Positions 2 through 12,723 of a DNA stretch of 64,000 nt are shown in pieces; the stretch's first letter is position 1; every line of letters begins with the position of its first letter. The stretch is from Terrabacter sp. Ter38. GTDB taxonomy: Bacteria > Actinomycetota > Actinomycetes > Actinomycetales > Dermatophilaceae. The notes below the pieces were generated by a model, which worked only from the letters and a program-made list of their open reading frames with translations, did not search any database and was not told the DNA's origin. The stretch lies in contig NZ_JALJRZ010000002.1 of assembly GCF_024519435.1 (NCBI RefSeq), forward strand, positions 124,001 through 188,000, given 5' to 3'. A program made the translations under genes and the position numbers.

Positions 2-664
2 GCAACACGCGTCGAGGCGCTCGGGCGGATCCGGGATGGCCTGCGCCAATCAGGCATCTACGGCGCCGAGCAGTCGGTCGTGTCATCGCTTGCGAGTCGC
101 GTTCTGCGGCCAGGATCGACCCCAGCGACGGACAGGGCGTTGTCGACTGTGACGACCGAGTGGAAGGCAGAGGAGCGGCGACTCGGTGTCGAAATCCCAC
201 CTCGCACCTGGGCGTATCTGATGCGCGCACGCGCCGACTTGGATGCTGGCCTGGTCCTCGCGGGTGGAGGCGGCGAGCGCCAGCGAATGGATGCGGTCCA
301 GAGCATGCTGTGGCCGCGCGGCTGGCAACTCCGTGCTGAACAACTGAACGCTTGGAATCCGTTTGCCGCGAATCTGGCAGCGGCACCCGACGTGCTGCGG
401 TCTCTCGCTGCCGCAGGCGATCCCCCGCTCCCCCTCATCGGCGACTTCCGTGTACGCGTCCGGCGGGCCCTGGCGAGTATGGGCTCGGCGCAGGTCCTAG
501 CCACCCCCGATCAGGCCGGAGAGCTCGCAGATCTGCTCGTGGACGTCAGCGTCGAGCCGGTAGTGACCGAATACCTCAATGTCTATCCGCGGGTTGTGGA
601 GGTCGACCACCGGGCGAACGGCGACGTCGTCGTCGCGCTCGAACTGGCCGAGGTGTCGGCATGA
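2..664 (+). CDS. C-terminal part of probable DpdJ-like protein (5' end outside window)
   Basis: The reading frame is open from the first bases of the window, so only the last 220 or so residues of a longer protein are visible. The fragment is a mixed alpha/beta tail without helicase motifs, a signal peptide or membrane segments. Its stop overlaps the ATG of the next gene (ATGA), so the two are translationally coupled. The next two genes resemble DpdK and DpdD of the Dpd deazapurine-DNA systems. In such clusters a large DEAD/DEAH helicase, DpdJ, often accompanies dpdK, and this suggests the identity. The assignment rests on context; the fragment alone would be hypothetical. Base composition is clearly less GC-rich than the rest of the window. 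Confidence 0.4.
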   Translation, partial: ATRVEALGRIRDGLRQSGIYGAEQSVVSSLASRVLRPGSTPATDRALSTVTTEWKAEERRLGVEIPPRTWAYLMRARADLDAGLVLAGGGGERQRMDAVQSMLWPRGWQLRAEQLNAWNPFAANLAAAPDVLRSLAAAGDPPLPLIGDFRVRVRRALASMGSAQVLATPDQAGELADLLVDVSVEPVVTEYLNVYPRVVEVDHRANGDVVVALELAEVSA

Positions 665-1185
665 GACGGATTACGACTGGGGGCCGCGGGCAGACGCGGG
701 TTCTCAATGACCTCATGCAGAACCTGCTGGTCACAGAACTCCTGGTCCCTTCCGGGCAACTGTGGGTTCTGTCTCCTTGGATCTCCGATATTGACGTAAT
801 CGACAACACGGCGGGCCAGTTCAAGACCGTGCTGCCAGGTCTCCCATCACGAAGGATTCACCTGACCGAGGTCCTGATCGAACTGGCTCGTCGTGGGAGC
901 GACGTCCGCGTTCTGACCCGCGACGCTGAGAGCAACATCGTTGCGCGCCAGCGGCTCGAGAATGCCGGCGGCCTGGGCGCTAGGCCGGCGGTACGAATCC
1001 ATCCCAATCTCCACGACAAGGGCATCCTGGGCGACCGATTCCACCTCCAGGGATCGATGAACTTCACCTACTTCGGACAGACGATAAACGCTGAGGGCGT
1101 GACGTTGACGCGCGACCCCCACGCCATCGCGGAGACGCGGATCTCGTACAACGCCCTCTACGAAGGGGCCGGTCATGCAGGGTGA
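661..1185 (+). CDS. dpdK: phospholipase D-like domain protein, DpdK-like
   Basis: This 174-residue protein carries one phospholipase-D (HKD) motif: His118, Lys120 and Asp125 in HDKGILGD, followed by GSMN (Ser132, Asn134). One HKD motif per chain normally means that a homodimer forms the active site, as in bacterial PLD-fold nucleases. The phrase LWVLSPWISD near residues 34-43 is typical of restriction-associated PLD proteins. The ATG overlaps the previous stop, and the end overlaps the next gene by 11 nt, so it sits inside a tight operon. Family knowledge places DpdK on the DNA-restriction side of Dpd systems; nuclease activity here is inferred. DISARM DrmC is also a PLD protein, but the DpdD-like neighbour favours Dpd. 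Confidence 0.7.
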   Translation: MRRITTGGRGQTRVLNDLMQNLLVTELLVPSGQLWVLSPWISDIDVIDNTAGQFKTVLPGLPSRRIHLTEVLIELARRGSDVRVLTRDAESNIVARQRLENAGGLGARPAVRIHPNLHDKGILGDRFHLQGSMNFTYFGQTINAEGVTLTRDPHAIAETRISYNALYEGAGHAG

Positions 1186-3340
1186 CGAGTTTTTTGGGCC
1201 CGGTAACGACATCAAACCCGCACGCCTACACCCCGAGCACGAGACATCGATCGAGAACTGGCGCGCTGCCATCAGGCGTGGGCAGATCGCGTTTCTTCCG
1301 AGAGCGACCAGCGGAAACCTTTACTGGTACGGGTTTGCGCCCACGCAACGGGAGCAGAAAGAGTTGCTCACGCTGCTGGACGCCTGGGTAGGCCCCACAT
1401 TCAGCGACCTGCCGAGAAGCCGGGGGCGGCTGTACCCAAAGGATCCGTTTGACACGGCGCTGGCCACGAACGACGTGCCGCCACTTCGCTTTGAGGTTCT
1501 GCCTCGCGGCAGCGGAGCGGCTCGCGACGAGGTACGCCAAGCACTCCTGGTTCTCTCCAAGTTGGTGTGGAAGCGTCCCCGCTCTGAGTTCGACGCCCCA
1601 CGAACCACGGTCGAGGTGCTCGACGACTTGGGTCACGCAATTGGTGCTCAGGATCGGCGAATCGCCCTTGCATGCCTTCGTGAACTCGAAGCCTTCGCCG
1701 ATCTCGACCACTCGAACCTTGCGTTCCTCCGCTTGCGCGTACACGCCGGGCTTAGGGACGTGGCCGCAATCTTCGCCGACCAGGACCTGGAACACGTCCT
1801 CCAACTGCGTCGCCCACTCGGTATCACTCGACTGCTTCAGCACGCTGTCTACGAGCGCTACCTAGAAGCGGCCGACGCATCCGGCGAGGGAGCATCACTG
1901 CTCGAAGCTGCCGACCGGATCCCAACTGGGCTCCGAACACTCACAACAGGAGGCACCGCAGGAAGCCGGCCCGCGCTCGTCGTCGAGTTCGTGCTAGCCA
2001 GACTTGGAGGCGCCGCAACCGCCACGCTTGAGCGGTGGGCCGAGGAAGCTCAGTCCATCTCGCCGGCATTGACGGACACGCTCCGCCTGCTGATTGCGCC
2101 TAATGCTGAGCCAACTCAGACGCTTCCTGCTGACCCCTCGGCGAAGCCAGACGTCACGCCGACAGATGAACTCCACCGACTTATCGAAGAAGGTGAGTTC
2201 GCTGCGGCGATCATCGCCGGTCTGGCAGAGCCGCCATCGACGACCACGGCTGCCCTATTGCTCGGATGCATTCGCGAGCTCGAGGACACGCGTCTCGCCG
2301 GTGAAGTCGCGGCCTTCGTCGAGGCTTCGGGACTCGAGGCAGAGTCGCGAGAAGACGACGTCGTCGTCCGAGCCGATCTTGAATGGCTCGCGCACTTCCT
2401 GACCCCGCTGCGGAACCATGGGTGGCTCGGATGGTTCGACGCCCTCCGCTCGAACGATGTCGCGGGAATGGACGTCGATTTCAGCGTCAGCGCCGACTGG
2501 TCGCCGCTCGACCATGCGACTGTCGCCAACTGCCTGGCGTCGCTGGACGAAGAGTCGTTGGCTCGGCTGGGAGACCATGGCGGCGCGTTCATGGCAGCGC
2601 ACTCGTCGCTATTTGCGGGCTCAGACGGAGCCGAACTCTGTGAGCGTGTTCTCGCAGGCTTCGCCGTCAGCGAAAAGAACACCGTGGGAATCCGCATTCA
2701 GACGGTCGCACTCCTGGAGTACCTGTCCGCTTCCGGGCCAGAGCCAGAGACTCTGGCCTCCTCGCTTCTGTGGACAGAGGACATCCTCCGGGCGGGCACC
2801 TCGGCAGTCACTGCGAGCTGGACGGTCGATGTGCTCCAGGCCGCAACCGCCAGCCCGCAGGCCCTGTCGCTCGATGCCAAGACTCGACTGTTCTACAGCG
2901 CACTTGAGGTGCTAAGGCCTGTGCGCTCCAGCCTAAGCCTCGCTGAGATCGAGGGACTTCGACTCGTCGCCGACGAGTTGACTACGGCCCTGCCCGAGGA
3001 CTTCGAGATCAAGACCCTCGGTGAAGACCCGGCCGCGCCGTACCGCCACCTTGAAGATTCAGTCGTCGTGCTCTACTCGCTCACCGAGTCCGCAATTACC
3101 CGCGCCGCACAGGTCCTTCGGCGGCTCATCCCAGGCATCGATGTACGGACGGCGTCAGACCATGACGGCAGTCAGCAGTTGGCTGCGCTCAGCTCGAACG
3201 CCGATGTATTCGTCATGGTCGCGGCATCGGCGAAGCACGCTGCCACCAACTTCATCAAGGACCACCGCGGAGGTCGACCAGTCATCCAGGTGAACTCGCG
3301 CGGCTCGTCGGCCATTCTCCGAGAGTTGGCCGAGGGGTGA
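1175..3340 (+). CDS. dpdD: DpdD-like defence protein
   Basis: This 721-residue soluble protein has no membrane segment. The N-terminus (residues 1-110) has features I associate with DpdD: FFGPGNDI near residue 6, a WYGFAP segment near 50 and VGPTFSDL near 72. The middle is helical and repeat-like. A C-terminal alpha/beta region (from about 610) has alternating strands such as SVVVLYSLTESA and ADVFVMVAASAKHAA. The ATG at 1175 overlaps the PLD gene by 11 nt. Dpd proteins B to K accompany the DpdA transglycosylase that places deazapurines in DNA, and D to K are thought to restrict unmodified DNA. The molecular role of DpdD is not established. The match is from memory of the family and needs a profile search. 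Confidence 0.65.
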   Translation: MQGDEFFGPGNDIKPARLHPEHETSIENWRAAIRRGQIAFLPRATSGNLYWYGFAPTQREQKELLTLLDAWVGPTFSDLPRSRGRLYPKDPFDTALATNDVPPLRFEVLPRGSGAARDEVRQALLVLSKLVWKRPRSEFDAPRTTVEVLDDLGHAIGAQDRRIALACLRELEAFADLDHSNLAFLRLRVHAGLRDVAAIFADQDLEHVLQLRRPLGITRLLQHAVYERYLEAADASGEGASLLEAADRIPTGLRTLTTGGTAGSRPALVVEFVLARLGGAATATLERWAEEAQSISPALTDTLRLLIAPNAEPTQTLPADPSAKPDVTPTDELHRLIEEGEFAAAIIAGLAEPPSTTTAALLLGCIRELEDTRLAGEVAAFVEASGLEAESREDDVVVRADLEWLAHFLTPLRNHGWLGWFDALRSNDVAGMDVDFSVSADWSPLDHATVANCLASLDEESLARLGDHGGAFMAAHSSLFAGSDGAELCERVLAGFAVSEKNTVGIRIQTVALLEYLSASGPEPETLASSLLWTEDILRAGTSAVTASWTVDVLQAATASPQALSLDAKTRLFYSALEVLRPVRSSLSLAEIEGLRLVADELTTALPEDFEIKTLGEDPAAPYRHLEDSVVVLYSLTESAITRAAQVLRRLIPGIDVRTASDHDGSQQLAALSSNADVFVMVAASAKHAATNFIKDHRGGRPVIQVNSRGSSAILRELAEG

Positions 3341-11160: not shown

Positions 11161-12723
11161 ATGGCAAGCGAACCCACGATGCTCGAGCTCCTGAGGAGCC
11201 GGCTCACCGATCTCGAGGCGCGACAGCGCGCCACGGGCGGCGTCGCCGAGGGCCGGTTCTGGGAGCGCTTCGCCGGGAGGGTCGCATCTGCGCGGCCCGG
11301 GCCCGACGCTCGGCCGGATCGGGCGGGCAGGCAGACGCGGCCCGTGGCGCCTGCGGCTCGTCCGGAGCCCCGCATGGCGGGCCCGTGGTCGGGCCTGACG
11401 CACGCCGAGGCAGGCTCGCTCGAGCAGCTGGACCTGCGGCACCCGTCGTGGCTCGACGCCGCCGGCTACGAGCAGATGGTCGACGACCCGGCGTGGGTCG
11501 AGTCGACCTCGGCTCGCGCCGAAGCCTCGGCAACCGTCGACGAGACCATCGTCGTCGAGGCCGCGGCGGGGCTGGGACTGACCCGCCATGCCGAGGCCGA
11601 GCTGACCGCCGCGGCCGAGCGGGTCGCACGCCAGCGGCGCACCCACGAGGTCACGCTCGTCACCATCGTCTCCGAGCTCGTGTCACGCGGCATCGACGCA
11701 CCGGACGGGCTGTCGCGCACCGACTGGCTCCGCAGCCTCGACCCGAGCCTGACTGCCGGGCAGGCCAAGGCGTTCGTCACGGTCGGCACCGCCCTGGCCG
11801 AGGCCCGGTGGGCGCGGCTGCGGCTGCTCGTGGCCACCCAGCAGGTCACCGTCGGCAACGCCGCCCAGATCGTCGAGTTCGACACGCGCACGGCCCCGGT
11901 CGCCGACCCCGACGACCTGACGACAGCGCTGTCCGACCTCACCGAGCAGGCGCCGCGGCTCCGCCCCGAGGAGCTCGCCCGTCTGGTCCGGCACCACACC
12001 GAGCAGGTCCGACCACCCCGCGACGAGGACCGGCTCGACCGCGGCCGCCGCGAGGCCCGCGGCCTGTGGTTCACGGCGCCGAACGCCACCGGCATGGTGG
12101 GCCTGCGCGGCGTGCTCGACCCCGAGGGCGCAGCCGTGCTCAAGGCTGCGATCGACCCGCTCTCGATCCCCTGCCCCGAGAAGGACGAGCACGGCCGCAC
12201 GGTCACGCCCGACGACCGCACTCCCGCGCGACGGCGGATGGACGCCCTGCTGACGATGGTGCAACGCGGAGTCGCCTCGGCAGAAGGGGTCCCCACCACC
12301 GACAAGGCCAAGGTCGTCGTGCTCATCGACCTCGTGACCCTCCTCGACGACGTCCGCGGCACCGGCACGACGCTCACCGGCGAGGTTCTCTCGCCGGGAG
12401 TCGTGCGCCGGATGGCCTGCGACGCCGAGATCATCCCCATGGTGCTCGGTCGCGAGGGCGAGCCACTCGACGTCGGCCGCAGCCAACGCCTCTTCACCCG
12501 AGGTCAACGCCTCGCGCTCATCGCCCGCGACCAGGGCTGCAGCGTCGACGGGTGCACGGTGCCGGCGACGTGGTGCGACGCGCACCACGTCGTGCACTGG
12601 CGACACGGCGGCGCCACCTCCGTCGACAACGGGGCCCTGCTCTGCCCGAAGCACCACACCGAGGTCCACGACCGCGACCTCACGGCGACGGTCACCGCCA
12701 CCGGCGTCACCTGGCACACCTGA
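11161..12723 (+). CDS. DUF222 domain-containing HNH endonuclease
   Basis: This 520-residue protein follows the common actinobacterial 13E12/DUF222 plan. A long helical DUF222 region (about 100-400) is followed by a C-terminal HNH nuclease domain (about 445-505) reading CSVDGC, then WCDAHHVVHW, then NGALLCPKHHTEVH. The paired Cys residues would hold structural zinc, and the tandem His is the metal-finger centre. Such genes occur in many copies per genome and are often linked to mobile DNA; their function is unclear. The ATG is placed by the leaderless -10 element. An internal Arg/Pro-rich stretch (about 40-75) is probably disordered. Confidence 0.9.
   Translation: MASEPTMLELLRSRLTDLEARQRATGGVAEGRFWERFAGRVASARPGPDARPDRAGRQTRPVAPAARPEPRMAGPWSGLTHAEAGSLEQLDLRHPSWLDAAGYEQMVDDPAWVESTSARAEASATVDETIVVEAAAGLGLTRHAEAELTAAAERVARQRRTHEVTLVTIVSELVSRGIDAPDGLSRTDWLRSLDPSLTAGQAKAFVTVGTALAEARWARLRLLVATQQVTVGNAAQIVEFDTRTAPVADPDDLTTALSDLTEQAPRLRPEELARLVRHHTEQVRPPRDEDRLDRGRREARGLWFTAPNATGMVGLRGVLDPEGAAVLKAAIDPLSIPCPEKDEHGRTVTPDDRTPARRRMDALLTMVQRGVASAEGVPTTDKAKVVVLIDLVTLLDDVRGTGTTLTGEVLSPGVVRRMACDAEIIPMVLGREGEPLDVGRSQRLFTRGQRLALIARDQGCSVDGCTVPATWCDAHHVVHWRHGGATSVDNGALLCPKHHTEVHDRDLTATVTATGVTWHT

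Follow-up and report, generated by a model that had tools for sequence, protein, structure and literature searches.

The window analysed here, a stretch of 64,000 nucleotides of Terrabacter sp. Ter38, comprises bases 124001-188000 of contig NZ_JALJRZ010000002.1 (C22; 552,645 bases), with window base 1 at C22:124001. It begins inside an island that very probably encodes a complete and apparently intact restriction-modification system of the known Dpd (7-deazapurine-in-DNA) type. Three consecutive, overlapping open reading frames on the plus strand span window 2-3340. These are the 3' end of dpdJ, coding for a YprA-like helicase (window 2..664, the last 220 codons, open leftward; NF041067), dpdK, coding for a single-HKD phospholipase D (PLD)-like protein that is presumed to be a nuclease (window 661..1185; NF041068, 183 bits, cut-off 100), and dpdD, the last gene of the island, coding for a protein of 721 amino acids (window 1175..3340; NF041061, 616 bits, cut-off 300). 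The first two overlap by 4 bases, a possible dpdK start codon being the ATG at 661 that overlaps the dpdJ stop codon TGA (662-664), and dpdK overlaps dpdD by 11 bases. The C-terminal part of DpdJ in the window matched the NCBIfam DpdJ family at 5.4e-52, and the PADLOC names of all three window proteins agreed with those of NCBIfam, all at scores that chance could not explain; as to Pfam, PLDc_2 in DpdK was their only match above cut-off. DpdK contained one PLD motif, HDKGILGDRFHLQGSMN (HDKGILGD...GSMN). A pattern of HxK followed by GSxN fits 46/46 DpdK sequences; a strict HxKx4D was rejected as a DpdK test, as it fits just 15/46. An initial annotation of this region had described the end of a large protein, a single-HKD PLD protein and a 721-residue protein with DpdD-like features, read them as the probable tail of a Dpd cluster, and proposed a profile search against the Dpd families. 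That search returned DpdJ, DpdK, and DpdD, and the rest of the cluster was found upstream on the same contig, where dpdA, dpdB, and dpdC had been predicted and genes for the synthesis of 7-cyano-7-deazaguanine (preQ0) had been thought possible; the contig holds dpdA, two dpdB genes, dpdC, and all of folE2, queD, queE, and queC.

The whole island covers about 25 kb, with folE2-queD-queE-queC on the minus strand diverging from dpdC-dpdB1-dpdA-dpdB2-dpdE-F-G-H-(I slot)-J-K-D on the plus strand, gene starts being mostly the mechanical first start codons. The preQ0 genes are folE2 (C22:102465-103283; NF010200, 229 bits, cut-off 215), queD (C22:103247-103618; TIGR03367, 111 bits, cut-off 89), queE (C22:103615-104328; TIGR04508, 340 bits, cut-off 240), and queC (C22:104247-104945; TIGR00364, 219 bits, cut-off 150). 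They are followed by dpdC (C22:105045-105917; PADLOC DpdC, 1.4e-98), dpdB1 (C22:105914-107047; NF041060, 390 bits, cut-off 300), dpdA (C22:107044-108282; NF041059, 589 bits, cut-off 200), and dpdB2 (C22:108275-109381; NF041060, 506 bits, cut-off 300). The restriction part consists of dpdE (C22:109464-112892; NF041062, 1140 bits, cut-off 500), dpdF (C22:112894-115491; NF041063, 650 bits, cut-off 550), dpdG (C22:115488-116411; NF041064, 155 bits, cut-off 80), dpdH (C22:116408-119464; NF041065, 665 bits, cut-off 450), a gene for a 236-amino acid protein in the dpdI slot (C22:119461-120171; NF041066, 12.7 bits, below the cut-off of 150), the entire dpdJ (C22:120168-124664; 1795 bits along the whole protein, cut-off 800), dpdK (C22:124661-125185), and dpdD (C22:125175-127340). 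The NCBIfam cut-off of the own family was passed by 14 of the 16 island proteins, among them all seven of the restriction proteins DpdD, E, F, G, H, J, and K, and the Dpd proteins were matched over nearly their full length. Neighbouring genes overlap by 4-82 bases or are separated by a single base; the two exceptions are gaps of 99 bases between queC and dpdC and of 82 bases between dpdB2 and dpdE.

DpdA matched a solved DNA-guanine transglycosylase (7ui4) at 2.8e-115, and its residues D93, D254, C362, C364, C367, and H389 were kept in all 82 DpdA sequences; by analogy to tRNA-guanine transglycosylase (TGT), we take these to be the general acid/base, the nucleophile, and the zinc site. Helicase motifs or family matches were found in DpdE, DpdF, and DpdJ, the last containing a Walker-type AGTGSGKT and DEIH, and a P-loop was found in DpdH. 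A sequence search retrieved no solved structure at a meaningful E-value for DpdB1, DpdB2, or DpdC.

The G+C content is 0.605 in the modification part and 0.635 in the restriction part, compared with 0.71 in the flanks, and the G+C content at third codon positions is about 0.67-0.76 in the island genes versus about 0.9 in clear flanking genes, indicating that the island is acquired DNA. No match to the TGT family (PF01702) was found in the Terrabacter genome, in a search that gave a match in all 14 control genomes. A strong match to QueC was found only in the island (2.6e-79), next to two weak QueC-family matches elsewhere in the genome (E-values of 0.0025 and 0.0054). Since no TGT of the tRNA type was detected and the sole strong QueC lies in the island, preQ0 probably serves DNA modification alone. 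DpdA was found above cut-off in 3/58 genomes of the relatives set, all three within the genus, in 3/9 genomes of the genus, and in 2/396 genomes sampled across the phylum, the genome of the window being included each time. A weak literature search turned up no earlier report of Dpd in Terrabacter.

The presence of two DpdB proteins, which are DGQHR-domain proteins, was followed through 81 loci, namely the best 80 of 90 DpdA-profile relatives among GTDB genomes plus G087, a sample that is biased to DpdA sequences like that of the window's genome. A DpdB was counted when it exceeded 100 bits and lay within 1,500 bases of dpdA. The initial count gave DpdB on both sides of dpdA in 65 loci and downstream only in 16; a B1 fragment at a contig end, retrieved by profile search in L067, changed these numbers to 66 loci with both and 15 with B2 alone. 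The loci belong to phyla including Actinomycetota, Planctomycetota, Verrucomicrobiota, Acidobacteriota, Gemmatimonadota, Myxococcota, Cyanobacteriota, and Pseudomonadota. Upstream copies matched the Terrabacter sp. Ter38 B1 best in 65/65 cases and downstream copies its B2 best in 81/81. A DpdB tree was made of 152 sequences (64 of the 65 B1 and 79 of the 81 B2 copies, the two from Ter38, and seven from four plasmid loci), three fragments under about 800 bases being dropped. In this unrooted tree from a short search, B1 and B2 formed two sides of one branch (support of 100 in the Shimodaira-Hasegawa-like approximate likelihood ratio test). The motif DGQQR was kept in all 68 B1 and all 84 B2 sequences of the tree; 55 columns carried the same residue at >=93% in both types, and three columns carried different residues. 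Two features of the tree count against a simple B1/B2 picture. The tree program warned of meeting long branches, those of the alphaproteobacterial copies, and the single DpdBs from Enterobacter, Moritella, Vibrio, and three Acidimicrobiia-like loci, which are B2 by position and score, came out nearest the B1 branch (support 89). These single DpdBs may have split off near the divergence of B1 and B2. As judged from gene position, score, and tree, DpdB comprises two families of old divergence, of which B1 is encoded upstream and B2 downstream of dpdA; NCBIfam gives both of them the name DpdB (NF041060). An earlier study counted 801 additional dpdB copies (PMC11888242), which are not described as one old second family in the part of that paper available; such a statement may have been made before.

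Variation at one position of DpdA may be tied to the presence of DpdB1. Residue 179 (AAQGW in the Ter38 protein) is Gln in 66 and His in 16 of the 82 DpdA sequences, and 7ui4 has His at the equivalent position. We take Gln to be the TGT-like state and the residue to lie in the base pocket. After addition of 17 of the 25 plasmid records found, 99 rows were available, of which 92 had B2 (the state of L058 was taken as Q from the alignment column). Among these 92, rows with B1 had 72 Gln and four His, and rows without B1 had three Gln and 13 His, corresponding to a Fisher p of about 2e-9 before correction, a value that overstates the case, since His requires only two changes on the DpdA tree (2-3 in bootstraps). 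Exceptions are found in L015, L067, L074, and L076, which have His despite the presence of B1, and in L068, L075, and L081, which have Gln although B1 is missing. All nine plasmid loci with B1, which are alphaproteobacterial, had Gln, and an Enterobacter locus with B2 alone had His. Seven loci without B1 or B2 according to the profiles had Gln; in two of them, L146 and L148, a gene annotated as DndB or with a DGQHR domain lies a few kb downstream. The link of the Gln/His state with DpdB1 is therefore an exploratory lead, with two or three origins only. In five cyanobacterial and Paenibacillus plasmid loci (L126, L127, L146, L147, and L148), DpdA is annotated with about 700 amino acids, including about 300 extra N-terminal residues, and neither B1 nor B2 was found beside it; a second TGT-like gene is nearby in three of these (L126, L127, and L147).

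A Dpd island was also found in Terrabacter sp. Root181 (NZ_LMHU01000001.1), at the same chromosomal site as in the window's genome. The Root181 proteins from FolE2 to DpdB2 are 87-99% identical to those of Ter38, and DNA of 93.5% identity extends over C22:102377-109381, up to and including the final base of dpdB2. In the restriction cassette (G007:C1:315769-332400), unlike the modification cassette, DpdF, G, H, J, and K are only 27-39% identical over the matched stretches and DpdD was matched along 14% of its length, with all six passing the NCBIfam cut-offs. The protein in the dpdI slot of Root181 reached 37.6 bits on DpdI, under the cut-off, and no DpdE over the cut-off was found anywhere in the Root181 genome (best score 42.7 bits, cut-off 500). 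Terrabacter aerolatus NBRC 106305 shares the restriction cassette, the modification cassette, and the flanks with Ter38 at 76-83% nucleotide identity. A quick DpdJ tree of 37 sufficiently long sequences, Kribbella and Nocardioides caeni being left out, grouped Ter38 with T. aerolatus and Cellulomonas sp. KH9 (support 100); a grouping of Ter38 with Root181, a pair picked after its identity was known, was rejected by the approximately unbiased test (p-AU 1e-51). The DpdA tree places Root181 as the sister of Ter38 (100/100). Restriction proteins of the window type, with 62-95% identity along the parts present, were further found in N. caeni, two Kribbella, and Cellulomonas sp. KH9, strains whose modification proteins show a quite different similarity to those of Ter38. 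Furthermore, the placement of the restriction genes relative to dpdA varied among the 81 loci. Restriction genes downstream of dpdA shared its strand in 19 loci and were on the opposite one in 36, the corresponding numbers for upstream genes were five and three, and in 18 loci the genes were absent, too few, or cut off. Taken together, identities, trees, and gene placement show that modification and restriction behave as separate, exchangeable cassettes. DpdC of T. aerolatus is only 46% identical to that of Ter38, compared with 75-82% for its cassette neighbours. An exchange of dpdC alone was rejected, since in nearly all other loci with dpdC this gene diverges more than the rest of the modification cassette, and fast evolution suffices as an explanation.

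In eight of the nine Terrabacter genomes, the genes flanking the island share a contig, at a distance of 12-36 kb (C22:96518-127477 in the window's genome); the ninth genome is 74% complete and gave only weak flank matches, and the right-hand flank gene at the site in T. aerolatus is the weaker of two copies. Dpd occupies the site in 3/8 genomes. In the five Dpd-free sites, 20 proteins out of 87 listed frames were picked for a defence-like look, and all 20 matched PADLOC models at 1e-8 or better, a fraction that carries no meaning by itself because of the way they were picked. MzaB, C, and E were found together with a methyltransferase and Vsr. Type I restriction-modification was accompanied by an Orf5/type IV-like protein and a DrmD-like helicase, DrmA by a cytosine methyltransferase and a TmtA-like protein, and type IIG by SNF2-type helicases; the Druantia-like DruF/DruL were matched as well. 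The variety of these model matches, which are not calls of complete systems, points to a defence hotspot. Anchoring of the site in a tRNA gene was rejected, as no tRNA was present in the six site stretches scanned. Between the island and the left flank, a gene for a 673-amino acid DUF3293-domain protein (C22:99703-101724, minus strand) and a 163-amino acid frame were found, both of which, among the loci searched, are common to T. aerolatus and absent from Root181, where flank and modification cassette are just about 26 bases apart; the Dpd-free genome G004 contains a frame beginning like this stretch. Further into the window, a 520-amino acid frame (window 11161-12723) has an HNH-like end (CDAHHVVHWRHGGATSVDNGALLCPKHH) and presumably resembles the DUF222/HNH repeat proteins of actinobacteria.

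Several points weigh against the interpretation of the island as a complete Dpd restriction-modification system. DpdC had no NCBIfam or Pfam match and was named by PADLOC alone. The PF01702 search is silent on DpdA itself, so that a very divergent TGT could escape it, and the weak QueC-family match at C33:430440 (E-value of 0.0025) exceeded the QueC cut-off only together with its frame neighbours. The protein in the dpdI slot was not recognised by the DpdI model, and a DpdI identity was rejected by profile comparison as well (probability just 9.8). According to the part of PMC11888242 available, dpdI is one of two dpd genes that are unclustered in >70% of known islands, so the unrecognised slot is no bar to membership of the Dpd type. 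Finally, both the DNA base and the restriction of unmodified DNA are predictions from the genes. The DISARM set consists of drmA-drmB-drmC and a methyltransferase, and neither DrmB nor a DNA methyltransferase appears in the family listing of the island proteins. It is extremely improbable that the island is a system of the DISARM or Druantia type with helicase and PLD genes in common; although DpdJ, DrmA/B, and DruE constitute one helicase family (PMC12458937, in the part available) and DpdK weakly matched DrmC (7.8e-4), DpdE, DpdF, and DpdJ were the best helicase models and exceeded their cut-offs, DISARM models fell far under theirs on the island helicases, and dpdA, dpdB, dpdC, and the que genes are present. 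The DISARM context, named in the initial annotation as an example that would speak against Dpd, was therefore not encountered. That the island only modifies DNA, providing a protective or regulatory mark, with D-K not being an active restriction machine here, is quite improbable too. Such a case could call on the 18 loci in which the stretch covered contains at most one restriction gene, some of them from short contigs, and on Dpd restriction activity being little explored (as stated in the available part of PMC12707154), but in this island DpdD, E, F, G, H, J, and K are open, match their models over nearly the full length, and form one tightly packed operon. A complete Dpd restriction-modification island is hence preferred.

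Concerning the two dpdB genes, it is unlikely that they are redundant duplicates of one function. The shared DGQQR motif and the 55 columns in common would fit redundancy, as would the 15 loci with B2 alone, but recent duplicates would pair within species, whereas B1 and B2 fall on two sides of one branch and keep their positions relative to dpdA. A wider proposal, possible but on the doubtful side, holds that Dpd modification in its common form is carried out by a machine of three parts, DpdB1-DpdA-DpdB2, that the single-DpdB systems of the enterobacterial type are derived, B1 having been lost after a Gln to His change in the base pocket of DpdA, and that the mark is a shared currency allowing cassettes to be exchanged between Dpd lineages without matching. 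Instead of a loss of B1, the B1/B2 split may have come after the single DpdBs, which are drawn nearest B1. For the mosaic in Root181, replacement of the restriction cassette is the simpler account, since both cassettes and the flanks of Ter38 recur in T. aerolatus. The converse, in which a strain with a different Dpd system acquired this modification cassette, is rather unlikely; it would agree with a cassette identity of 93.5%, slightly above the 91.2-91.6% of the flanks, but the similar divergence of cassettes and flanks between Ter38 and T. aerolatus fits descent of the island as a whole.

In the published account, as far as given in the parts of PMC11888242, PMC12839542, and PMC12707154 available, FolE and QueD-E-C produce preQ0, DpdA with DpdB inserts preQ0 into DNA, and DpdC converts it into 2'-deoxy-7-amido-7-deazaguanosine (dADG), with dpdD-K presumed to serve restriction. 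Laboratory Escherichia coli K-12 produces preQ0 of its own (PMC6884629). From knowledge of the Dpd and preQ0 gene families, we infer for Terrabacter that FolE2, QueD, QueE, and QueC would convert GTP to preQ0, that DpdA and the DpdB proteins would exchange some of the chromosomal guanine for preQ0, and that the nitrile would be hydrolysed by DpdC, yielding dADG as the final mark. DpdD-K would then stop unmodified incoming DNA from establishing, with the helicases DpdE, F, and J, the P-loop ATPase DpdH, and the PLD nuclease candidate DpdK as the players to which roles may be assigned. Two additions to this scheme are that DpdB1 and DpdB2 may be two non-redundant subunits, and that the restriction cassette may recognise the mark as such, and not protein contacts specific to one partner. 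The latter is suggested by Root181, which pairs a near-same modification cassette with a very different restriction cassette; if both Terrabacter combinations work, restriction must read the mark and not a partner-specific feature.

The island is predicted to provide Terrabacter with a rare DNA base. As no TGT of the tRNA type was detected, preQ0 should go to DNA only, which makes the island useful. Through the comparison with relatives, open Dpd questions such as the function of DpdB and the self-recognition by restriction become testable. Terrabacter offers a natural strain pair in which near-same modification genes are joined, at a single site, to restriction genes that differ. Annotation would also gain from the distinction of two old DpdB families that now carry one name. 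With the system itself already known, the interest lies in these two families, the natural exchange of cassettes, and a possible link between a DpdA residue and DpdB1.

Compared with known systems, the dpd islands of Salmonella Montevideo and Kineococcus radiotolerans, as described in the available part of PMC11888242, have the same division into dpdA-C for synthesis and dpdD-K for restriction, linked preQ0 genes, and an island-like setting. The Ter38 island differs from that description in the two DpdB types flanking dpdA, which are not unique in view of the additional dpdB copies counted there, in its FolE2-type cyclohydrolase, and in the unrecognised protein in the dpdI slot. Plasmid pPOL9A of Enterobacter cloacae (NZ_CP086409.1) shares annotated dpdA, dpdB, dpdD, K, J, H, G, and F, but has one DpdB, which is downstream and matches B2 best, His for Gln in the AxGW motif of DpdA, and its restriction genes on the opposite strand. 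Within the genus, Root181 is alike in site and modification proteins (87-99%) and differs in its restriction proteins (27-39%) and the lack of a DpdE over cut-off, whereas T. aerolatus NBRC 106305 is alike in its restriction cassette (proteins 73-90% identical), two DpdB proteins, and adjacent DUF3293 gene, and differs in its overall divergence and its DpdC.

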